NCBI RefSeq assembly: GCF_949769195.1
Contig: NZ_OX458333.1
Location: 496,001-560,000 of the forward strand
From: Methylocaldum szegediense
GTDB lineage: Bacteria > Pseudomonadota > Gammaproteobacteria > Methylococcales > Methylococcaceae
Direction: 5' to 3'
Length of the DNA: 64,000 nucleotides
Position 1 is the first letter of the stretch. Each line of letters opens with the position of its first letter. The notes under the pieces were generated by a model. It was not told the origin of the DNA and did no database searches. It saw nothing but the letters and a program-made list of their open reading frames with translations. Made by a program: the position numbers and the translations under genes. Below, one piece after another: positions 7,535-19,129 of the stretch.

Positions 7535-8359
7535 ATGTTAGCCACTGCAATCATCGTTTTTCGCGAGGTCATCGAGGCAGCGCTCGTGATTAGCGTCGTT
7601 ATGGCAGCCAGCCGCGGCGTCGCCGGTCGCGAGTGGTGGGTCTGGGGAGGTGTCGGAGGCGGTATCTTCGCCGCCTGCGTCGTTGCGGCTTTCGCTGAAA
7701 CGCTTGCGGAGGCGGCGTCGGGTATCGGACAGGAGCTTTTCAATGCATTCGTCTTGTTCACGGCGGTTGCGATGCTCGGTTGGCATAACATCTGGATGCA
7801 GCGTCACGGGCGTGCGCTTGCACAGGAGATGACTCGCGTAGGTAAAGCCGTGTTGTCGGGCGAGCGACCGCTCTATGCTCTGGCGATCGTAGTGGGGCTT
7901 GCGGTGTTGCGGGAAGGTTCGGAAGTCGTCCTCTTCTTGTATGGGATTGCCTCGGCTGGTGAAAACCAGACCGCTTCGATGGTGACAGGCGGAATGATCG
8001 GTATTTTGCTCGGTACCGGCGTGGGCTTGGCGATGTATTACGGTTTGCTGCGTATTCCCACGCGTCATCTATTCAAGGTTACCAGTTGGCTCATCTTGTT
8101 CCTGGCTGCCGGTTTGGCTTCGCAAGGAGCGGCCTATTTAGTGCAGGCCGATCTGCTTCCTCCCCTAGGCCGCGAGGTATGGAATACCTCGAATTGGCTG
8201 TCGGAAGACAGCTTGATCGGACAGGTTCTTCATACGCTGGTCGGTTACGTTTCCCGTCCGGATGGCGTACAAATCCTGTTCTATCTCGCGACGCTCGTCA
8301 TCATTGCCATTTTGATGCGGGTTTTCGGCGACAGGTCAGCCCAATCAGTTGGGCACTGA
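7535..8359 (+). CDS. FTR1 family iron permease (EfeU-like)
   Basis: Inner-membrane permease of 274 residues with about seven hydrophobic segments. Both signature acidic motifs of the Ftr1/EfeU family are present: FREVIEAALV (residues ~8-17) and LREGSEVVLFLYG in the middle, which bind Fe(III) in the family. It is directly downstream of the periplasmic cupredoxin-like protein and forms an uptake pair with it. No EfeB peroxidase gene is nearby. Methane oxidisers need much iron, but the link is only inference. Confidence 0.9.
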   Translation: MLATAIIVFREVIEAALVISVVMAASRGVAGREWWVWGGVGGGIFAACVVAAFAETLAEAASGIGQELFNAFVLFTAVAMLGWHNIWMQRHGRALAQEMTRVGKAVLSGERPLYALAIVVGLAVLREGSEVVLFLYGIASAGENQTASMVTGGMIGILLGTGVGLAMYYGLLRIPTRHLFKVTSWLILFLAAGLASQGAAYLVQADLLPPLGREVWNTSNWLSEDSLIGQVLHTLVGYVSRPDGVQILFYLATLVIIAILMRVFGDRSAQSVGH

Positions 8360-8439: not shown

Positions 8440-9579
8440 ATGGCACAGCAGCGGTCGCCTGATCAGGGATTCACGCCGTCTATCGAAAAAATAACGGTAT
8501 CGGATCGTCGTATCCTCAGGCTGAAAGGCGGCTGGAATCTGCGAGGCCTGTCGACAGATAGCCGCAGCCTTCGCGAGCAGCTAAAAGCCTATGCCCGCGA
8601 CGAAACTTGGGAGTGGGATATCCGCGATGTCGCCGCCCTGGACAGCGCTGGGGCTTTTTTGCTTTGGCGAGCCTGGGGTGAACGTCTTCCCGACAAGCTC
8701 CAAGTGCGGCCCGAACAGGCATCGACGTTCAGTCGCTTGCAGCAATGGTCGGCAAGACCCTTCGAGCCGATTGTTCGACAACCAAAGCCGGTCGGCGAGC
8801 GCATCCGCGGCCTTGTTTCCGCCGGGACGGACCATTTGACGTCGCTCGTTTCGATTCTTGGACAACTGATATTGGATGTGGGGCATCTGCTGCGTCATCC
8901 GAGCGATGTACCCTGGCGGGAGATTTCGGCCGCGATTCACGAAACCGGCGGGCGCGCCTTGGGCATTACCGCCCTGGTTGGTTTTCTCATAGGCATCGTG
9001 GTCAGCTATCTCTCATCCCTGCAATTGCAAGCCTTCGGCGCGCAAATCTATATCGTCAACATCCTCGGATTGAGCATCATTCGGGAACTCGGTCCGCTGC
9101 TTGCGGCCATCCTCGTGGCTGGGCGCTCGGGATCGGCCATGACCGCGCGTATCGGAGTGATGCGAGTCACTCAGGAATTGGATGCGCTCGAAGCGCTCGG
9201 TATTTCCCGTTCGCTACGCCTCGTTTTTCCAAAGGTCGTCGCATTGGCGATCGCGCTTCCTCTCCTGGTCGTCTGGACTGATGCGATCGCATTGCTCGGC
9301 GGGTCCATCGCCGCTCATTTCGAACTGGGGGTGGGCTACTATCAATTCGTTACGAAATTGCCCGATGCGGTGCCGGTAGCCAATTTCGCGATTGGATTCG
9401 GGAAGGGAGCGGTATTCGGGTTGTTTATCGCCGTCCTGGCTTGCCATTTTGGCCTGCGCATAGAGCCAAACACTGAAAGTCTGGGTAATGAAACAACGCG
9501 CTCGGTGGTCGCATCGATAACCTTGGTTATCTTGATCGACGCCGTTTTTGCGATCCTTTTCCGCAACATCGGTTTGTAA
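8440..9579 (+). CDS. mlaE: MlaE-type ABC permease with N-terminal STAS domain
   Basis: Permease of an MCE-type phospholipid ABC transporter. In the 379-residue product, residues ~14-105 form a STAS-like domain (MlaB-like, with ALDSAGAFLLW), and from ~150 onward is the MlaE permease with five or six hydrophobic segments and the family motif IIRELGPLLAAILVAGRSGS. In E. coli MlaB and MlaE are separate; the fusion is common in other proteobacteria. The stop overlaps the ATG of the ATPase gene by 1 nt, so the two are translationally coupled. Confidence 0.92.
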   Translation: MAQQRSPDQGFTPSIEKITVSDRRILRLKGGWNLRGLSTDSRSLREQLKAYARDETWEWDIRDVAALDSAGAFLLWRAWGERLPDKLQVRPEQASTFSRLQQWSARPFEPIVRQPKPVGERIRGLVSAGTDHLTSLVSILGQLILDVGHLLRHPSDVPWREISAAIHETGGRALGITALVGFLIGIVVSYLSSLQLQAFGAQIYIVNILGLSIIRELGPLLAAILVAGRSGSAMTARIGVMRVTQELDALEALGISRSLRLVFPKVVALAIALPLLVVWTDAIALLGGSIAAHFELGVGYYQFVTKLPDAVPVANFAIGFGKGAVFGLFIAVLACHFGLRIEPNTESLGNETTRSVVASITLVILIDAVFAILFRNIGL

Positions 9580-10358
9580 TGGAGAACGATAAGAACGATC
9601 CCGTCATCCGAATGGAAGGGATATGGACCTGCTTCGGGAAAAACGTGGTTCACCAGGACATCAGCCTGTCTCTGGATAAGGGGGAAATTTTCGGTTTGGT
9701 CGGCGGTTCAGGAAGCGGAAAAACGGTCTTGCTGCGTGAGATGATTGGGCTTCAGGAGCCGTCCCGTGGCAAAGTCTATCTTTTCGGTGAGTGTCTACAA
9801 GAGATTCCGGTCAGTCGCCATCAACAGCTCCGCAACCGTTGTGGTGTGCTTTTTCAAGGTGGGGCTTTGTTCAGCGCTCTGAGCGTGTTCGAAAACATCG
9901 CATTCCCTTTGCGCGAATTCCGTGTATTCGATGAGGAACTCATCGATCATTTGGTGCGAATGAAGCTCACGATGGTTGGATTGAGCGAGAAAGCTGGGTT
10001 ATTGATGCCGTCCGAATTGTCTGGCGGCATGATCAAACGTGTCGCGTTGGCGCGGGCGCTGGTAATGGAGCCGGAACTGCTCTTTCTCGACGAACCTACA
10101 TCCGGACTCGACCCTGTACTGAGTGAGGAATTTGTCGATTTGTTGAGCGCTCTGCACCGGGAGTTGAGGTTTACGGTGGTGATGGTGACTCACGACTTGG
10201 ACACGGTGAAAGACTTATGCACGAAGATCGGCGTGTTGGCGGATCGGCGCCTCGTCGTCTGCGGCCCGATTTCGGACGCATTGGCTTCCGAACACCCGTT
10301 TGCACGGCATTATTTTCACGGGAAGCGCGGTCACCGCGTTTTCGAGCGGATCGGTTGA
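9579..10358 (+). CDS. mlaF: MlaF-type ABC transporter ATPase
   Basis: The 259-residue ATPase energises lipid transport between inner and outer membrane. It has Walker A GGSGSGKTVLL (about residue 43), the ABC signature LSGGMIKRVALARAL, Walker B with LLFLDEPTSGLDP, and the switch His in MVTHDLDTV. Gene order permease-ATPase-MCE protein-lipoprotein with 1- to 4-nt overlaps supports one operon. Confidence 0.94.
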   Translation: MENDKNDPVIRMEGIWTCFGKNVVHQDISLSLDKGEIFGLVGGSGSGKTVLLREMIGLQEPSRGKVYLFGECLQEIPVSRHQQLRNRCGVLFQGGALFSALSVFENIAFPLREFRVFDEELIDHLVRMKLTMVGLSEKAGLLMPSELSGGMIKRVALARALVMEPELLFLDEPTSGLDPVLSEEFVDLLSALHRELRFTVVMVTHDLDTVKDLCTKIGVLADRRLVVCGPISDALASEHPFARHYFHGKRGHRVFERIG

Positions 10359-10359
10359 T

Positions 10360-11274
10360 ATGGGTAGAGAGAGTTATGCATTCCTGACGGGATTGTTCGT
10401 AGTCATTTTAGGTGCAGCATCCATCATCGTAGCCTTGTGGCTGGGTAACTACGGTGAAGAGTACAACAGCTACTATGTCGTCACTCAGGGATCGGTTTCG
10501 GGACTCAATCCCGAATCCACCGTTCTTTATCGGGGCGTGAATGCCGGCAAAGTCTCTTCAATCAGCTTCGATCCCAAAGACCGGCGGAACATTCTCGTAC
10601 GGGTCGAACTGAATAAGGATCTTCCGATCACCCAAGGAACCTACGCTAAGTTACGCGTCCAGGCATTGACCGGCTTGGCTCAGGTGGAATTGTTCGACAC
10701 CGGTGAACAACCTGAGCCTTTGCCGACGGACCCCGACAATCCCGCACGTATTCCGCTACGACCTTCGCTGTTCGACAAGCTGACCGAATCTGGGCAAGAC
10801 ATCCTCACCCAGCTCGGTATTTTGGCGAACCGGCTCAACAGCTTACTGAACGAGGGCAATCGCGAGCGGATTCAACGGATTCTGGAGTCGGTTGCAATCG
10901 CCGCGGAACAATTGGCGACATTGGAAGAAAGCATGGACGAGATGCTTGCAGAGGTGCCGGCCCTGAGCGGCGAGGCGCAACGTATGATGGCCGGAATTTC
11001 TCGTCTTACCGATGAGCTAGGAACCGCCGTGAAGGAGATTCGGAGCCTTACGAAAACCACTCAAGACTTAGTTGCCGCCGGGAACTCGGCGAGCGAAGTC
11101 ATTGTAGAGACCACTCTACCCAAGATAAATGCATTGCTCGACGAGACCCGTTCGGTGGCCACCAATATCCGAGATTTGTCCGATATGTTGAGAGATGACC
11201 CGCGGACTCTCTTGTTCGGTCCGCCCAAACAAGTACCCGGGCCGGGGGAACCGGGTTTTCGGGAGCCTAAATGA
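10360..11274 (+). CDS. mlaD: MlaD-like MCE domain protein
   Basis: The 304-residue substrate-binding subunit has an N-terminal membrane anchor (residues ~8-28), one MCE domain (~38-115, with VSGLNPESTVLYRGVNAGKV), and a long helical C-terminal part (about 140-285) likely to form coiled coils or a tube across the periplasm. It is longer than E. coli MlaD (~180 residues) and closer to the longer MCE proteins of many proteobacteria. The ATG at 10360 follows the ATPase stop directly; more upstream starts would overlap the ATPase gene by 20 codons. Confidence 0.9.
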   Translation: MGRESYAFLTGLFVVILGAASIIVALWLGNYGEEYNSYYVVTQGSVSGLNPESTVLYRGVNAGKVSSISFDPKDRRNILVRVELNKDLPITQGTYAKLRVQALTGLAQVELFDTGEQPEPLPTDPDNPARIPLRPSLFDKLTESGQDILTQLGILANRLNSLLNEGNRERIQRILESVAIAAEQLATLEESMDEMLAEVPALSGEAQRMMAGISRLTDELGTAVKEIRSLTKTTQDLVAAGNSASEVIVETTLPKINALLDETRSVATNIRDLSDMLRDDPRTLLFGPPKQVPGPGEPGFREPK

Positions 11275-11864
11275 CAAAAGTCTTTATAAAGGTAAATCTG
11301 TTTCTTTTGGTGCTGCTGATCTCTAGCTGCGCTGTCATACCGGAAAGGTCTGCCCCCGTGAGGCTGCACGACCTAGGGCCGCTGCCCAGCCACGCAGACC
11401 GTGCACCGGCGCCATGGGCTTCGGTGCGCGTCACGGCCCCAGAATGGTTGAAGGATGACCGAATTCGCTATCGCTTGGCCTATGCCGACCCCACCCGGGT
11501 AGGTGTATACACTTTGGATCGTTGGGTGGCGCCACCGCCGGAACTTGTGGCGCTGCGCTTCAACCTTTCGGGTGACGGTGGGCCGTTTCAGATTCGGATC
11601 GAACTTCAGGCGTTCGAACAGATTTTTGAACGACCCGACTTTGCCAAGGGAGTGATCCGTTTTCGAGCCTCGGTTTACGATCTCGGCAGTAGAAAACGAT
11701 TGGCCGAACGGACATTCGAGCTCGACAAGGTTTCGCCCAGTCCAGATGCTGCCGGAGCCGTAGTTTCTTTAGCCAATTTGGCCGATGAGGCCATAGAGGA
11801 GGTTCGAGGTTGGATCAGCAGGACGGACCTCATGCGCGAGACATCTCCTCAGGGGACTCGTTGA
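11271..11864 (+). CDS. ABC-type transport auxiliary lipoprotein
   Basis: The 197-residue product has a lipoprotein signal (LLISSC, acylated Cys20), then the fold expected of the ABC_trans_aux/PqiC family: RVTAPEWLKDDRIRYRLAYA followed by a Tyr/Asp-Arg-Trp segment typical of this family. These lipoproteins partner MCE proteins at the outer membrane. The start ATG overlaps the stop of the MCE gene (ATGA), so it is the last gene of the operon. Confidence 0.85.
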   Translation: MTKVFIKVNLFLLVLLISSCAVIPERSAPVRLHDLGPLPSHADRAPAPWASVRVTAPEWLKDDRIRYRLAYADPTRVGVYTLDRWVAPPPELVALRFNLSGDGGPFQIRIELQAFEQIFERPDFAKGVIRFRASVYDLGSRKRLAERTFELDKVSPSPDAAGAVVSLANLADEAIEEVRGWISRTDLMRETSPQGTR

Positions 11865-12230
11865 GCGACTTTCAGCAGCGGGAACGCGAATGAAACGTTC
11901 GTTTCTGGAAACAATGCTGATACTGGTGGTTGCTCAAATCCTGAGTATAACGAATGGTTATTAGAAAAGTCTTCTTTTCTAAATAACCGATAGTTTTGAT
12001 TTTAAAAGGAAAATTCTATGGAATATCGATTGTGTGAAACCTTTGCAAAAAAAAGTGGACACATAGATTTTTTTCTTTAGACTGTGCCCAGCTTTACGGA
12101 CGAAGCGCCAAAACATAGAGTCGTCAAAGAGGAGGAAAGCCCCCTTGCGGGGCAATATAACTATATACGAGAGCACTAAACAAAGCGCGTCGCCGACGCG
12201 GTGCGCTACAACAATAACAATAATGATACT

Positions 12231-12290: not shown

Positions 12291-12483
12291 CAAGAGGAGG
12301 AGAACTTTTGGCCGGACTCAATCGACAGATCGACCTTAATCACGCCAAAGGATGCTGAGGTTGGTATAAAGTATATACCCTTATATCTGTCTTTTTCATA
12401 AGATTTTCTTATGAAAGAAATAGCCGGCCTTTATTACCTCCCGAAAAATAATGTGTAAATCAATGTACGCCGAGTAGGCGAAG

Positions 12484-14799
12484 TTACAGGGAAAGTTTTA
12501 ACCCAACCCATCCAGCCCTGGGTGCACCGATGCCTACGAAGCGCGGATCGGTGTACTGGTCGCCCAGCACTTCGTCGGCCTCGCCATACAGTCCAAAGGT
12601 GTAATAGCGTTTGTCGAACAAGTTGTCGATCCGGGTGAACAGGGCTACATGCTCGTTGAACCGGTATTCGCCATGCAGGTTAAATACGGCGTATTCCCTC
12701 AGCGGTTGGTTGAGATTGGCCTCGTCGCCGCGGAAGTATTGACCGCTGTTGTAAATCATGTTCGCCCCGATCACCAAGCCCTTGAGCACTTCGACATCCG
12801 TGTAGATTTTCAGCATGTGCTTCGGAAGACCGGGAATGCGGTTGCCTTTTTCCACTTCGATCTGCCCGTCGTCGTCCGCATTAGGATTGTTCGGGCTGCT
12901 GGCCAAGAACGGTGTACGGAACGTGGCGTCCAGCAGGGTGTAATTGATTCCGAACCGCACCCGCTCGAACGCTCCGTTGAGTCCCAGTTCGATGCCCCGA
13001 CGGCGGGTCTTTCCGACGTTGTCGAAATAGCCCTGGTTAGTGAGATTGCCGCTGCTGATGAAGATGATGTCGTCGTGGTTTTCAGTCTGGAACAGCCCGG
13101 CATGCCAGTTGAGCTTCCCACCCCAAAGCTGCGCGAACTCACCCCGAAAACCGGCCTCCCAGGTCTTGGACACCACTTGATCGAGCGGCGGGTCGGCAAG
13201 GAACGCATTCGGTAGCTTACAAGGCGCCTCAGGGTTCGCACAGGTCAGCTCGACCGGCGTCGGAGCGCGGTTCGATTCACTGTAGCTGCCGTAAACCGTG
13301 AATTCCGGCATGAAGGCATATACCAGGCCAGCCGACGGGTTGAAGCGTTCAAACTTGTGGAAGCCGTTCAGGTCATCCCCGTATTGGTCGTCGAGGCGAA
13401 TGAACGAGAGGTTGTAGCGCCCTGCGGCCGTGATCGACAACTTATCGGTTACCGACAGGGTGTCGCTGAAATAAATTCCGTGGTGTCGGACATGGGCATG
13501 GACCCTCACCCGCGACTCGCCCACAAAGACTCCGCTGCCGATGGTGCCCCGGTCATCAGTCAGCGAAGCAAGCTCGGTGTCCGAGCTGAAATGAATGCGT
13601 GCTTCGTCGTAGCTGCCGCCGACCACGAGGCGATTATGCATGCCGAACATATCGTGTTCAAAAGCACCCTGTAGGCTGCCGCCGTAGCTGCGCTGGTTGG
13701 TTTGGCTGGTGTTGTTGGTCGCGCCTTCGACAGCGTCGCTGGCCAGCACGTTGTTGCCGTTGATGTCCTCGACGAGCTCCTCGTCGTCGTCTTCCTCCTC
13801 GCACAGGAAACCTTCGTGTTCGTCTTCCTCGCACTCCTCGAAGTCGGAATCGTCGCCGTTGAAGGTCTTGACCCGGTTTTGCCGGAAATAAGCGTTACCC
13901 GACAATTCGAAATTGTCGGTGAGCCAGGTGCTACCGTCCAAAGAGGCCAGGAACAAGCGCGTGATGCTGCGGTCGGGATGGGTGAAGATTGCTTCCGGGT
14001 CCTTCTTGGCCAATTGCAGCGGCAGCGCGCCGTTGCCGATCATCCGATTGTTGTTGGCGGCCAAGGTCAGATTGAGTTTCGAACGTTCGTCTTGCCAACT
14101 GAACGTGCCGAAGGCCTGCTTGACGTCAGTGGGCGAAAAATCGCGCCAGCCGTCCTCGTAGAAGCTCTTGAGGTCGACGAAATAACCGACGGTACCGTTG
14201 TTCCATCCACTAGTAACTTCCTGCCAGTGCCGGCCCCAGGATCCGCCCGCTACTTCGACAGTATGTCCAGGCGCGGAGAAACCCGTTTTGGTACGCATTG
14301 AAATGGCTCCGCCGAGGCTGTTCAAGCCATACACCGCGTTCGACCCGGAATGTAGCGTTGCTCTTTCGATGGCACCTTCTGGGATCAGGTCCCAGTTAAC
14401 GGTATCGCCGAACGGTTCATTGAACCGGATACCGTTGACGTACACGGACAACCCTTGGGGCAATCCGAGCAGCGGCGATGCGGTAAATCCCCTGAACTGA
14501 ACATCGGGCTGGAAGGGGTTGTTCTGGGCGTCATTGACGCTGACACTCCCGAAATGCCAACGCATGTAATCCGCCAGAGAGGTACTCTCGAATTGATCTA
14601 GTTGTTCCGACGTAACCGATTGCACGGGCGACGGAACCTTACTCGCCGGCACGCCCGAGACCATCAATGGCGTTTCGTCTACGATTTCAACCGTGCCGAG
14701 CTCGACAGCTCCCCCGGTCTCCTCCGCGGCAACAGCTGCCTCTGCACCGACCAGAACCAGCAGCGTGGTTCCGGTGTAACGTATTCTTCTTATAAGCAT
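12484..14799 (-). CDS. TonB-dependent receptor with extremely acidic segment
   Basis: Outer-membrane TonB-dependent receptor, 771 residues from the ATG at 14799 (GGGGG 7 nt upstream; an in-frame GTG at 14811 overlaps that site). After a signal peptide come a plug domain (~50-165, with SVYVNGIRFNEPFGDT and SGSNAVYGLNSLGGAIS) and a 22-strand-type barrel ending GWVGLKLSL. Residues 316-345 are unusual: 20 of 30 are Asp or Glu, with two Cys (FEECEEDEHEGFLCEEEDDD is part of it). Two more Cys lie in a second loop (LTCANPEAPCKLP). It is next to a MoxY-like two-component system and divergent from mxaF, so a metal or metallophore ligand, lanthanide or calcium, is plausible but unproven. The substrate could also be a siderophore. 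Confidence 0.9.
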   Translation of the reverse strand: MLIRRIRYTGTTLLVLVGAEAAVAAEETGGAVELGTVEIVDETPLMVSGVPASKVPSPVQSVTSEQLDQFESTSLADYMRWHFGSVSVNDAQNNPFQPDVQFRGFTASPLLGLPQGLSVYVNGIRFNEPFGDTVNWDLIPEGAIERATLHSGSNAVYGLNSLGGAISMRTKTGFSAPGHTVEVAGGSWGRHWQEVTSGWNNGTVGYFVDLKSFYEDGWRDFSPTDVKQAFGTFSWQDERSKLNLTLAANNNRMIGNGALPLQLAKKDPEAIFTHPDRSITRLFLASLDGSTWLTDNFELSGNAYFRQNRVKTFNGDDSDFEECEEDEHEGFLCEEEDDDEELVEDINGNNVLASDAVEGATNNTSQTNQRSYGGSLQGAFEHDMFGMHNRLVVGGSYDEARIHFSSDTELASLTDDRGTIGSGVFVGESRVRVHAHVRHHGIYFSDTLSVTDKLSITAAGRYNLSFIRLDDQYGDDLNGFHKFERFNPSAGLVYAFMPEFTVYGSYSESNRAPTPVELTCANPEAPCKLPNAFLADPPLDQVVSKTWEAGFRGEFAQLWGGKLNWHAGLFQTENHDDIIFISSGNLTNQGYFDNVGKTRRRGIELGLNGAFERVRFGINYTLLDATFRTPFLASSPNNPNADDDGQIEVEKGNRIPGLPKHMLKIYTDVEVLKGLVIGANMIYNSGQYFRGDEANLNQPLREYAVFNLHGEYRFNEHVALFTRIDNLFDKRYYTFGLYGEADEVLGDQYTDPRFVGIGAPRAGWVGLKLSL

Positions 14800-14860
14800 A
14801 GAAACCCCCACGATTTCAGCAGAACCGCAAATGGTAGGGGAAGTTGTCAGAATAGAATAT

Positions 14861-14876
14861 GGGAAAAATTCCCAAG
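14861..14876. promoter_or_regulatory. Palindrome upstream of TonB receptor gene, shared with mxaF region
   Basis: GGGAA-AAA-TTCCC followed by AAG lies about 62 bp upstream of the receptor start, beside the response-regulator stop. The same 8-mer TTCCCAAG, also next to an inverted repeat (GGAAA-T-TTTCC), occurs at 17113-17120 between the kinase gene and mxaF. This is a candidate common operator. The hairpin could instead be a weak terminator for the regulator gene. Confidence 0.3.
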
Positions 14877-14878
14877 AT

Positions 14879-15526
14879 TTAGGCTTTCAGCAGTCCGTAC
14901 TGGTAAGCGAGCCGAGCCATTTCCGCGGTGGTGCTCACATTGAGTTTGTTTTTGATCAGGGTTGTGTAATTGCCGACAGTTTTATAGCTGAGACGGAGTT
15001 CGTCGGCGACCTCCCGCGTCGTGTAGCCTTTGGCCAGCAGGCAGAACACGTCGAATTCGCGCGCCGAAAGCGCGTTCAGATCTGTGGCCGCATCCTTTCC
15101 AGCAATGGTTTGCGCCAGGAGTTTCTGAGCGATTTCCGGTTCCACATAGGTTTCTCCGCCGGCCACTTTTTTCACCGCTTCGACCAAAGTTTCGGGAGCG
15201 CTGCTCTTGGTGATGTAGCCCTTGGCTCCGGCCTCCAGTGCTCTGAGCACATAGACCAGCTCGTCGTGAATGCTGAATACCAGTACCTTGGCGCCTGGAT
15301 CGCGGCTAGAGATGCGGCGAATCGAAGCGAGTCCGCCTATTCCCGGAAGGCTTAGGTCCATGACGACGACATCGGGCTGCCACTCGGTATAGAACTGGCA
15401 GGCTTCTTCGCCGCGTTCGGCTTCGCAGACGACTTCGATATTCTCGCTTTGGGACAGCAAGAGTCGATAGCCCGCGCGAACCACGGCATGGTCATCGACT
15501 AACATAACAGTGATTTTCGGATTCAT
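14879..15526 (-). CDS. LuxR-type response regulator, partner of MoxY-like kinase
   Basis: NarL/FixJ-class regulator of 215 residues. The receiver domain has the acidic pair VDDH (11-13), phospho-acceptor Asp57 in VVMDLSLPG and the conserved Lys in GYITKSS. The C-terminal LuxR HTH is at ~150-210 (LSAREFDVFCLLAKGYTTRE...LSYKTVGNYTTLIKNKL). The ATG at 15526 overlaps the kinase stop (ATGA), showing coupling. In methylotrophs LuxR-type regulators of this kind (MxaB, MoxX) control mxa genes, and the position facing mxaF supports that. Which named regulator it matches cannot be settled without a tree. Confidence 0.92.
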   Translation of the reverse strand: MNPKITVMLVDDHAVVRAGYRLLLSQSENIEVVCEAERGEEACQFYTEWQPDVVVMDLSLPGIGGLASIRRISSRDPGAKVLVFSIHDELVYVLRALEAGAKGYITKSSAPETLVEAVKKVAGGETYVEPEIAQKLLAQTIAGKDAATDLNALSAREFDVFCLLAKGYTTREVADELRLSYKTVGNYTTLIKNKLNVSTTAEMARLAYQYGLLKA

Positions 15527-16926
15527 GGAAATACATCTCCGCACGGTACGCAGACTTCGAGAGACACGCCTTCGCCGGGCTTGGTTCGGAGTTGGAACTG
15601 CCCGCCGAGGCTCGCAACTCGCTCACGAATGCCGAGTAAGCCGAAACCGCGTCTAGGTTGATTCGAATCAAATCCACGTCCGTTATCGCCGATTCTGAGC
15701 TGAATCCAGCTTCGGGCATGCTGTTCAATCTCTTCATTCTCTTTAATCCGAAGCTCGATCTGAACGCTGTCGGCTTCAGCGTGCTTGACGATATTCGTAA
15801 GGCATTCCTGAACAATGCGGAACAGGTGAATCTTAGCCGTGCCAGCGCGCTCTTCGATATTGTCATCGCATTCAAAGTGCAGGTTAACGCCGGGATTGCG
15901 ACTTCTCCAGCTTTCGATCAGATCTTCCAACGAAGCGATCAGCCCTAATTCATCGAGCATGAGAGGGCGCAGACGACGCATCATTCCGCGTACCACGCCA
16001 AAAAGGCGATCACAAATGGCCATGATGCGCTCGAGTGCATCGTTATCTTGAGGACGGCCGTCGCGTTTCCGTAAAGAGGCGGCCATGATCTTTATCGCGC
16101 TCAATGACTGGCCGAGTTCATCGTGAAGCTCCTGAGCCAGATAGCGTCGTTCTTCTTCCTGGATCGCCAGGGATTGTTGTGTAAGCGCACGATTGTCGTC
16201 GCGAGCTTTTTCCAGGGTCGAGGCCATGTGGTTGAAGGCTTGGGAAATCCGATTGAATTCCGGTAAAGAAAAGCCCGGCAATCGCCTTCCGTAATCGCCT
16301 CGCTCAATATCTTCGAGACCATCCAGAATGACGTCGACGCACCGCAAGGCTCGCCCTACGGTTATATGGACAAGGGCGTAGATGGTTGCTGCCAACACCG
16401 CGATCAGAATCAAGAAACCGATAGCCTCGCTCCAAGCTTCGGCGATTTCATCTTCCGGGTTGGCTTCGATGAGAATGCTCATGGCATCGTTGCCGGCGGT
16501 TTCGACGCGTTTTTCGGCAACGATGGACCCGGGTCTGACTGCCCAGGCAAACCAGCCGGGTACTTTGGCGGTGTGCTGATTCCGCCTCGCAGCCAGGTCG
16601 ATGAGAGTGGGTTCGACCTGCGGTTGTCCAAACGTGCGTCCATCGGCTGGATTGGAAGTCTGGCGTACCTCAATTCGGAGATGCCGGGTCTTGTCTAGTC
16701 TGTTCAGTTGAGAGAACCAGTTTCCGAGGGAATCCGCAGAGCTCCGGTTCTCCGATAAGCCGATTTCGATCAATTGCAGCGCTAGATTGACCGTGGAGTC
16801 GATTTCCTCCGCCACCGATCGGCGGGCGTTGTGAATGGCGAACAGGGTGCCCAAGCCAAGTATCGCAAGCATGGTCAGCACGATCATCAGGTTCAGGCGA
16901 AAACGTAAGCTAAGACTCTCGTGCAT
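15523..16926 (-). CDS. Membrane sensor histidine kinase, MoxY/MxaY-like
   Basis: The 467-residue kinase has TM1 (~13-32), a ~135-residue periplasmic region of the LapD/MoxY type (starts RRSVAEEIDSTVNLALQLIE), TM2 (~169-188), HAMP (~188-240), a HisKA_3 dimerisation helix with phospho-acceptor His268 (YLAQELHDELGQSLSAIK), and a C-terminal HATPase with IGDNGRGFD and GFGLLGIRERV. It is the first gene of the kinase-regulator operon and diverges from mxaF by 397 bp. Established work in a gammaproteobacterial methanotroph ties the kinase MxaY to the lanthanide switch; this gene is a candidate for that role by context and domain type. Confidence 0.92.
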   Translation of the reverse strand: MHESLSLRFRLNLMIVLTMLAILGLGTLFAIHNARRSVAEEIDSTVNLALQLIEIGLSENRSSADSLGNWFSQLNRLDKTRHLRIEVRQTSNPADGRTFGQPQVEPTLIDLAARRNQHTAKVPGWFAWAVRPGSIVAEKRVETAGNDAMSILIEANPEDEIAEAWSEAIGFLILIAVLAATIYALVHITVGRALRCVDVILDGLEDIERGDYGRRLPGFSLPEFNRISQAFNHMASTLEKARDDNRALTQQSLAIQEEERRYLAQELHDELGQSLSAIKIMAASLRKRDGRPQDNDALERIMAICDRLFGVVRGMMRRLRPLMLDELGLIASLEDLIESWRSRNPGVNLHFECDDNIEERAGTAKIHLFRIVQECLTNIVKHAEADSVQIELRIKENEEIEQHARSWIQLRIGDNGRGFDSNQPRRGFGLLGIRERVASLGGQFQLRTKPGEGVSLEVCVPCGDVFP

Positions 16927-17323
16927 GATTCTTGGCGGACGGGGGTGAACTGGGGTTTTTCTGAGAAACGAACGCGGGCTTTACCTGAGCCCGTTCGGGA
17001 CGTGGAGTAAGGGGCCTGCAAAAAACGAGCGCATTTCGTGCAGGTTGTCAGCTTAGGAAGGGCGCATCATTTCGTCAAGGTTTTTCAAGAGTTGTCTCAA
17101 GAAAAGGAAATTTTCCCAAGTCCTTCGGTCTTGATGTCAGCGCCTAACCGTACCTCGGGCTTGGGAGATGCAATGCACGCGTTACAGAATTTTTCCTGTC
17201 ACGATTCGGGCGTATTTCACTACAGTCTGTGTTTCCATTCTTCCAAAATTCGCCGCCGTGATCATTGACCCATGATCGCTCTGTCTTCGGGCAGGCCGAA
17301 AAAGAATTCAGCGAGGAAAACAC
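16927..17323. promoter_or_regulatory. Divergent control region, kinase operon / mxaF
   Basis: The 397-bp gap should hold the strong mxaF promoter and the kinase-operon promoter. Visible elements: the 8-mer TTCCCAAG (17113-17120) shared with the receptor-gene upstream region, adjacent to GGAAA-T-TTTCC; an inverted repeat GATCAT-TGACCC-ATGATC at 17260-17277, 47 bp upstream of mxaF; and a clear ribosome site GAGGA at 17313. I cannot assign -35/-10 boxes with confidence. Confidence 0.5.
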
Positions 17324-19129
17324 ATGCAAAAACGCAAATTAGCGGTAGCCGTCAGCGGCGCTCTGATGGCTGGAGGGCTCATGGCCGTTTCCGGCACCGG
17401 CTCCGCGAACGACGCACTTATCGAATTGTCGAAGGACGACCGGAACTGGGTCATGCAGACCAAGGACTACAGTGCCACTCACTATTCCAAGTTGACTCAA
17501 ATCAATGTGGATAACGTGCACCATCTCAAGGTGGCCTGGACGTTCTCTACGGGTGTTCTGCATGGTCACGAGGGAGGTCCGTTGGTGGTGGACGGCATCA
17601 TGTATGTCCATACCCCGTTCCCCAACAACGTGTTCGCGCTCGACCTCAATGACCCGGGCAAGATTATTTGGCAGTACAAGCCCAAGCAGAATCCGGCGGC
17701 CCGCGCCGTGGCGTGCTGCGACGTGGTGAACCGTGGTCTCGCCTATGTACCAGCTGGCGACCATGGTCCGGCCAAGATTTTCCTGAACCAGTTGGACGGT
17801 CACATCGTCGCTCTCAACGCCAAGACCGGCGAAGAAATTTGGAAGATGGAGAACTCCGACATCTCCGTCGGTTCGACCCTCACCGTCGCTCCCTTTGTGG
17901 TGAAGGATAAAGTGCTGGTGGGTAGCTCGGGCGCCGAGCTGGGCGTGCGTGGCTACGTTACGGCCTACAACATCAAGGACGGCAAAATGGAGTGGCGCGC
18001 CTATGCGACCGGTCCGGACGAAGATTTGTTGTTGGACAAATCGTTCAATATTCACAACCCGCATTACGGTCAATTCGGTCTAGGTCTCTCGACCTGGGAA
18101 GGCGATGCCTGGAAGATCGGCGGCGGTACCAACTGGGGTTGGTATGCCTATGATCCGAAGCTGGACTTGGTCTACTACGGTTCGGGTAACCCGGCGCCGT
18201 GGAACGAGACCATGCGGCCTGGGGACAATAAGTGGACCATGACGATCTGGGCACGCGACCCCGATACCGGCTTGGCCAAATTCGGCTACCAGAAAACGCC
18301 GCATGATGAATGGGATTACGCCGGTGTCAATTACATGGGTCTGTCCGAGCAGGAAGTGGACGGCAAGATTACGCCGCTCCTGACCCACCCCGATCGTAAC
18401 GGTATCGTCTATACCCTGAATCGCGAAACAGGCGAGCTGGTCAACGCGTTCAAGATCGACGAGACCGTGAACTGGGTGAAAAAGGTCGATCTGAAGACCG
18501 GTTTGCCGATCCGCGATCCGGAATACGGCACCCGCATGGACCATGTCACCAAGGGTATTTGCCCGTCGGCCATGGGGTATCACAACCAGGGTATCGAGTC
18601 TTACGATCCCGACAAGAAGCTGTTCTTCATGGGCGTAAACCACATCTGTATGGATTGGGAACCGTTCATGCTGCCGTATCGTGCGGGTCAGTTCTTTGTC
18701 GGAGCGACTTTGAACATGTACCCCGGACCTAAGGGTACCTTGGGTCAGGTCAAGGCGATGAACTCGGTGACCGGCCAGATCGTGTGGGAAATCCCGGAGA
18801 AGTTCGCAGTTTGGGGTGGTACCTTGGCGACCGCCGGCAACCTGGTGTTCTACGGCACCCTCGACGGGTACATCAAGGCCCTGGATTCGCGTGACGGCAA
18901 GGAAGTCTGGAAATTCAAGTTGCCCTCGGGCGTTATCGGGCATCCGATCACCTATATGCACAACGGCAGACAGTACGTAGCGATCTACTCGGGCGTCGGC
19001 GGCTGGCCGGGTGTGGGGCTGGTGTTCGACTTGAAGGATCCGACGGCAGGACTCGGTGCGGTCGGAGCGTTCAAGGAGCTGGCCAATCACACGCAAATGG
19101 GTGGAGCGGTGTTCGTGTTCTCCCTGTAG
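17324..19129 (+). CDS. mxaF: Methanol dehydrogenase large subunit, calcium type (MxaF)
   Basis: Periplasmic PQQ-dependent enzyme oxidising methanol to formaldehyde, with MxaI as small subunit and MxaG as electron acceptor. The 601-residue precursor has a signal peptide cleaved near residue 28. All key residues are at family positions (mature numbering = minus 28): vicinal disulfide Cys131-Cys132, Ca ligands Glu205 and Asn289, PQQ-stacking Trp271, catalytic Asp331 in DEWDYAG. Residue 333 is Ala; lanthanide-dependent XoxF has Asp there, so this is the Ca-type enzyme. The start has GAGGA 7 nt upstream. It is the first gene of mxaFJGIRSACKLD and is followed by a hairpin likely to favour mxaF mRNA. 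Confidence 0.98.

Follow-up and report, generated by a model that had tools for sequence, protein, structure and literature searches.

Genes at the mxa-linked receptor locus

The 64,000-nucleotide stretch of the Methylocaldum szegediense genome studied here (contig NZ_OX458333.1, positions 496,001 to 560,000; hereafter the window) contains a gene for a TonB-dependent receptor close to mxaF, the gene for the large subunit of calcium-type methanol dehydrogenase. The receptor gene (12484..14799, minus strand) encodes a protein of 771 residues with Plug and TonB barrel domains, if read from its ATG, which is preceded by a GGGGG stretch resembling a ribosome-binding site. Starting from a GTG further upstream (14811), the open reading frame would have 775 residues. 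Upstream of it on the same strand lie the genes for a LuxR-type, MxaB-like response regulator (14879..15544) and for a sensor histidine kinase (15523..16926), and this unit is divergent from mxaF (17324..19129, plus strand). The coordinates and domains thus confirm the original prediction of a sensor kinase and a LuxR-type regulator facing the mxa cluster. MxaF carries Ala at the metal-marker position, where we take Asp to be the mark of XoxF (lanthanide-type) and Ala that of MxaF. The domains of the genes that follow fit mxaJ, G, R and I, S, C, K, L, D, with the letters being those that we presume for this cluster. The product of the mxaA gene has no Pfam match; its homologues are found in the mxa clusters of two other loci (L102 and L119). 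Two genes elsewhere in the same genome carry the XoxF-type Asp at the marker position. Note also that a second pyrroloquinoline quinone (PQQ) dehydrogenase gene with the lanthanide-type Asp (G000:C1:282244-283956, locus L223) is followed, as judged by eye, by a MxaJ/XoxJ-like gene.

The divergent arrangement, with nearly constant spacing, is present in all four Methylocaldum loci. In each of them, 22 bp are shared between the genes for kinase and regulator, and the latter gene stops 66-67 bp before the GTG position and 78-79 bp before the ATG of the receptor gene. As judged from this gene order, the three genes probably form one operon and are co-transcribed in Methylocaldum. Co-transcription is only likely because a terminator-like repeat of the GGGAATTTTTCCC type (about 14860-14874), revealed by alignment and a scan for terminator-like sequences and mostly conserved in the four aligned loci, is situated in the gap between regulator and receptor (14800..14878, minus strand). 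An AT-rich, near-perfect inverted repeat just downstream of the receptor gene (12393..12417, minus strand) is a possible terminator as well. In the intergenic region between kinase and mxaF (16927..17323), a small hairpin close to the kinase gene (about 16975-16993) can be seen in the alignment of the four loci; it folds no better than shuffled sequences. Among the fetched loci, the closest named receptor (89% identity) is that of Methylocaldum sp. 14B, i.e. of the same genus. The record titled as a metagenome-assembled genome (MAG) of Methyloversatilis universalis (L094) contains Methylocaldum-like proteins (mxaF 96%, receptor 89%), and its title looks wrong.

The kinase and the regulator resemble the MxaY/MxaB pair of the lanthanide switch (PMC5018670). 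The window kinase falls into the MxaY clade together with the Methylotuvimicrobium MxaY kinases and apart from four paralogues (support 100/100), and all eight other receptor-adjacent kinases placed in the tree belong to this clade, too (100/100). It possesses Glu at the position aligned to Glu147 of MxaY, which is weak evidence, because three of the four paralogues share this residue. The LapD_MoxY_N domain scores just below its cut-off (23.6 versus 25 bits). The window regulator shares 60% identity with the one that occupies the MxaB position, i.e. that stands divergent from mxaF, in three Methylotuvimicrobium genomes, 56% with the MxaY-linked regulator and 42% with a paralogue. The two-component system had been predicted to be MoxY-like, and the tree and these identities agree with that. 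However, the regulator at the MxaB position is encoded apart from MxaY in Methylotuvimicrobium, whereas kinase, regulator, mxaF and receptor genes adjoin in the window. Among the genomes compared, the Methylotuvimicrobium genome G044 is treated as M. buryatense-like since its kinase (40.0% identical to a Methylococcus kinase, with Glu at 147 from the chosen ATG) and its regulators (50.5% identity between the kinase neighbor and the one at mxaF) match the figures reported for M. buryatense MxaY (40% identity, E147, 50%; PMC5018670).

The receptor family and its polyacidic loop

The most unusual feature of the receptor is a polyacidic loop (N318-V355 in numbering from the GTG; 13747..13860, minus strand), which includes Cys327, Cys337 and an NGD motif at 318-320. 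The 20 Asp/Glu and two Cys that had been reported for residues 316-345 are correct if counted from the ATG; the same stretch comprises residues 320-349 from the GTG, and residues 316-345 in the latter numbering contain 18 Asp/Glu. When the receptor was shuffled 10,000 times, 20 acidic residues in 30 were never reached (the highest count was 16), and in the remaining 17 TonB receptors encoded in the genome, some of them fragments, the most acidic 30-residue stretch has 11. Furthermore, N318, G319, D320, C327 and C337 are invariant in all 81 aligned receptors (the window and 80 named loci), thereby answering the question of whether the loop is conserved among relatives, and position 349 is Asp in 73 of them. 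The loop contains 5-20 acidic residues (median 11; 17-20 in Methylocaldum) and at most two basic ones in 80 receptors, with five in the remaining one (L133). In the relatives from families f6 and f7 it is longer and still acidic. The possibility that the loop is peculiar to this genome was rejected, as it is common to the whole aligned family; judging from the alignment, Methylocaldum shows an exaggerated form of a trait of the family.

At E ≤ 1e-100, 33 of 38 genomes of the family gave a receptor match, and at E ≤ 1e-60, 260 of 301 genomes of the order did so; the latter is an upper figure for orthologues, because this threshold also takes in distant receptor relatives. To judge by these matches, the receptor family spans most of the order Methylococcales.

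Two TonB receptors for lanthanides can be compared with this protein. LanA of Methylotuvimicrobium buryatense is likewise a receptor proposed for lanthanide uptake in Methylococcales (PMC12482762, PMC8788690), and LutH serves lanthanides in Methylorubrum extorquens. The published LanA/LutH survey (PMC12482762) may include members of the present family, and a LutH-like protein of M. trichosporium is reported there to be down-regulated by cerium (Ce). Kinship with LanA, to which an alignment of the receptor had been suggested, was not borne out. Compared with the 13 Plug-bearing receptors found in G044 and the eight found in M. alcaliphilum 20Z (G101), some of which are fragments, the receptor shows no identity above 27% (local alignments, E ≤ 1e-5). 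This comparison covers all Plug-bearing receptors found in both genomes. Whichever of them is LanA, the receptor is therefore not its orthologue; moreover, neither genome has an intact copy of the receptor, and the family is missing there save for a remnant. A Methyloprofundus strain is reported to have no LanA homologue (PMC8788690), which points the same way; three Methyloprofundus records (L110, L116, L121) carry the receptor family studied here.

Affiliation to vitamin B12 or siderophore receptors, which would have spoken against a lanthanide role, was rejected, as the scores lie under the curated cut-offs. The receptor reaches 89.9 bits with the vitamin B12 receptor model TIGR01779 (cut-off 599.7), which another receptor of the same genome passes at 615 bits, and 131 bits with the siderophore receptor model TIGR01783 (cut-off 223.5), which four of the 17 other receptors pass. 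In fact, it is far below the cut-offs of the siderophore, B12 and heme models.

Recurrent linkage with MxaY/MxaB-type regulators and LanPepSY-like proteins

In 11 of the 80 named loci (L093, L094, L096, L097, L102, L119, L121, L141, L157, L167, L170), a MxaY-type kinase or a MxaB-type regulator is encoded no more than 2.1 kb away from the receptor, with the regulator alone in L102 and L157 and the kinase alone in L141. In one more locus (L131), a xoxF fragment is located near the receptor. About 0.3 linked loci would be expected by chance, if one regulator pair per 4 Mb, 1.12 Mb of flank and independent loci are assumed (the loci are in fact related). As a small control, no match to MxaY, MxaB or mxaF (E ≤ 1e-12) was found at the loci of the 17 other receptors encoded in the Methylocaldum genome itself, at 18 receptor loci of G044 and at nine of G101, for which the flanks were shorter and some receptors were present twice. 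By our own reading of the receptor tree, the 11 linked loci form seven clusters. The tree tool needed at least five changes, three of them forced by well-supported branches, and the label is clustered (none of 500 shuffles gave as low a number); this test compared the linked loci, the window and L131 with the ZIP-linked rows only, and 46 rows were left out. In one open-access library searched, no earlier report of the receptor-regulator linkage was found.

The Methylobacter tundripaludum MAG (L119) possesses a mxa cluster with mxaG, I, R, S, A, C and L-like genes. Receptors with ~40% identity are also encoded ~3 and ~10 kb past the last recognized mxa gene in G018 and G017, respectively, and a further partial receptor match lies at 3.4 kb in G017. 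In the genus g9, receptors with ~40% identity are encoded some kilobases past the mxa cluster, at 13379-15874 in L275 and at 8915-12013 and 15870-18269 in L276. The one in L275 is directly preceded by a gene for a 283-residue protein without Pfam family, of which L276 has a 287-residue relative (by eye). In two related MAGs, L167 (8112-9752) and L170 (8325-9911), the gene that separates the MxaB-like regulator from the receptor codes for a protein with calcium-binding RTX repeats.

Another recurrent neighbor resembles LanPepSY of Methylobacillus flagellatus, a lanthanide-binding protein with two PepSY domains (PMC12482762). The likeness refers to the published description rather than to the M. 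flagellatus sequence: two PepSY stretches are present in the proteins from L061, L036, L040, L066, L119 and L039 (in the latter in a 136-residue piece), and those from L061, L066 and L036 have 172-174 residues and, by eye, a signal-like start. The gene is situated between the receptor and MxaY in L119, next to the mxa cluster, and between mxaF and MxaY in L066. In L061 (G032), the genes for the PepSY protein, MxaY, regulator and receptor follow each other in this order on one strand, and in L036, L039 and L040 the LanPepSY-like gene stands beside receptor relatives with 38-39% identity. As a control, only one of 44 other receptor loci has such a gene, namely L237 of G044. This linkage, which came to light independently of the acidic loop, is the strongest independent sign for lanthanides.

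The control locus L237 concerns a different TonB receptor. The LanPepSY-like gene of Methylotuvimicrobium follows this receptor in L237 (210-695 and 1217-3427) and in L177, with one PepSY stretch over the threshold in either protein. From its position, this receptor is a candidate LanA.

Proposed role of the receptor and alternative explanations

We suggest that the receptor is a TonB-dependent importer of lanthanide ions or of a lanthanide chelate that is distinct from LanA and controlled by MxaY/MxaB, and we give this proposal an even chance of being right. The support for a lanthanide role is new, independent and circumstantial. The loop, probably closed by a disulfide, may, as judged from the alignment with PqqU alone, be located at the outer mouth of the barrel, where it would attract a trivalent cation or hand it on. 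The receptor would be made when lanthanides are scarce and MxaF is in use, and its level would fall once lanthanide arrives and XoxF takes over. In the periplasm, the LanPepSY-like protein would, wherever it occurs, bind the metal; XoxF would use it, and MxaY would read it directly or indirectly. The proposed regulation follows from the reported response of the corresponding region of Methylococcus capsulatus, in which Ce lowers the expression of MCA0776-0789, including the putative regulatory genes MCA0776-0778, and the mxa genes fall as well (PMC10728633). However, in the Methylococcus genome G010 the genes upstream of mxaF encode a kinase, a regulator and a small protein that matches no Pfam family, so that this small protein occupies the third place that the receptor has in Methylocaldum, and in none of the Methylococcus genomes examined is the receptor relative adjacent to mxaF. 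Repression of the receptor by lanthanide in Methylocaldum is therefore a prediction. Of the original interpretation as a whole, the MxaY/MxaB kinship, the conservation of the loop and the separation from B12 and siderophore receptors stood, to which the recurrent MxaY, mxa and LanPepSY-like neighbors can be added; orthology to LanA did not stand.

The family makes both lanthanide uptake by gammaproteobacterial methanotrophs and the signal of MxaY directly testable, and its short acidic loop offers a handle for work on rare-earth binding. A family that is kept in most of the order and tied to MxaY, MxaB, mxa and LanPepSY-like genes in several lineages also suggests that lanthanide uptake does not necessarily depend on LanA in general. 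A broader version, which we consider rather unlikely, is that an order-wide non-LanA receptor grabs Ln3+ with its disulfide-closed polyacidic loop without a lanthanophore and forms an import and sensing module together with the LanPepSY-like protein and MxaY/MxaB, and that some Methylotuvimicrobium lost the receptor and rely on LanA.

Several of the observations in this and the following two paragraphs weigh against lanthanide import. M. alcaliphilum 20Z has no copy of the receptor, and in G044 only a 3' remnant is present (67 residues, 75% identical to the wino1 receptor; L225, 7933-8133), flanked by ZIP/GDT1 genes and a gene for an M48 protease; these flanking genes match those of wino1, which has the whole receptor at that place, at 66-76%. 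The receptor is thus not required in organisms for which the switch is known. The LanPepSY-like gene stands beside the different TonB receptor in five Methylotuvimicrobium genomes, three of which were inspected gene by gene, and the window contains no LanPepSY-like gene, the search being confined to the window. No linkage to MxaY, mxa or xoxF was seen in the fetched flank of 68 of the 80 named loci, many of which are on short contigs, and a single early linkage followed by losses is possible. No TonB receptor is named among the Ce-responsive Methylococcus genes in the accessible part of PMC10728633; this speaks against conservation of the response in Methylococcus, whose receptor relative does not adjoin mxaF. 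The distribution of XoxF is in favor of lanthanide import, as 244 of the 301 Methylococcales genomes have a match that passes E 1e-230, but it does not discriminate, since XoxF is nearly universal in methanotrophs. In G074, the receptor is present and no match to a PQQ dehydrogenase was found.

Two further observations of this kind favor the import of a different metal, for instance calcium, manganese, zinc or iron, or of its chelate, with the mxaF neighborhood serving the calcium enzyme or general metal supply. In 22 of the 80 loci, ZIP (PF02535) and/or GDT1 (PF01169) genes are situated beside or near the receptor (e.g., L150, 8063-9820; Pfam was run on one representative of each), and these families are usually tied to divalent metals. 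This context fits a metal role but points to no particular metal. Furthermore, the receptor occurs in seven of the 18 listed f6 genomes, although not one of these 18 reaches the XoxF threshold. In favor of lanthanides, all six readable PQQ dehydrogenases of receptor-bearing genomes below this threshold (four from f6, one from f7 and one from Pontibacterium) possess the lanthanide-type Asp; the enzyme of L254 was unreadable at the marker site, and two genomes gave matches without a locus. The Asp is not discriminating either, because it is likewise present in the readable PQQ dehydrogenases of two out of two f6 genomes that lack the receptor. Import of another metal leaves the repeated linkage with MxaY-type and LanPepSY-like genes unexplained, and the low scores with the siderophore, B12 and heme models do not favor it; we regard it as improbable.

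The nearest solved relative of the receptor is the PQQ importer PqqU/YncD of Escherichia coli (best match of a profile search against solved structures, with E 2e-34 compared with 1e-21 for the protein ranked second), and the receptor could therefore recover PQQ, the cofactor of MxaF/XoxF, or a PQQ-metal complex. The linkage to PQQ enzymes and the metal co-binding proposed for some PqqU relatives (PMC12124388) would be in line with this function. The PqqU signature consists of an aromatic residue at 99, Arg304 and Arg365 (PMC12124388), and it is lacking in all 49 aligned members, which have Leu/Met at 99 (49), Asn at 304 (46) and Phe/Tyr at 365 (49), although the alignment, at ~25% identity, may be incorrect in the barrel part. 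An invariant Arg310 of the receptor family is found two residues off the 304 column. The NCBIfam model of PqqU gives 128 bits versus a cut-off of 1200, and import of PQQ appears distinctly improbable to us. In the same alignment, the acidic loop, which is in a poorly aligned stretch, comes after the strand that in PqqU bears Arg304 and continues into Gln308/Gln310, which are among the tested residues of the PQQ site (PMC12124388).

It is just as doubtful that the loop binds only structural calcium for the stability of an extracellular loop and gives no hint of the substrate: a putative Ca ion in loop 6 of PqqU (PMC12124388) and the variation of the acidity (5-20) at a fixed Cys pair agree with such a role, whereas the extreme acidity in Methylocaldum (17-20), mxaF-linked in four of four loci, does not (yet unlinked L104 also has 18), and the linkage evidence does not depend on the loop.

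A gene for an FTR1-family iron permease (PF03239) is present in the window at 7535-8359 (plus strand), followed by mla-type genes, and this block adjoins the receptor in the other three Methylocaldum loci as well. This block could supply the partner that a trivalent metal needs at the inner membrane.

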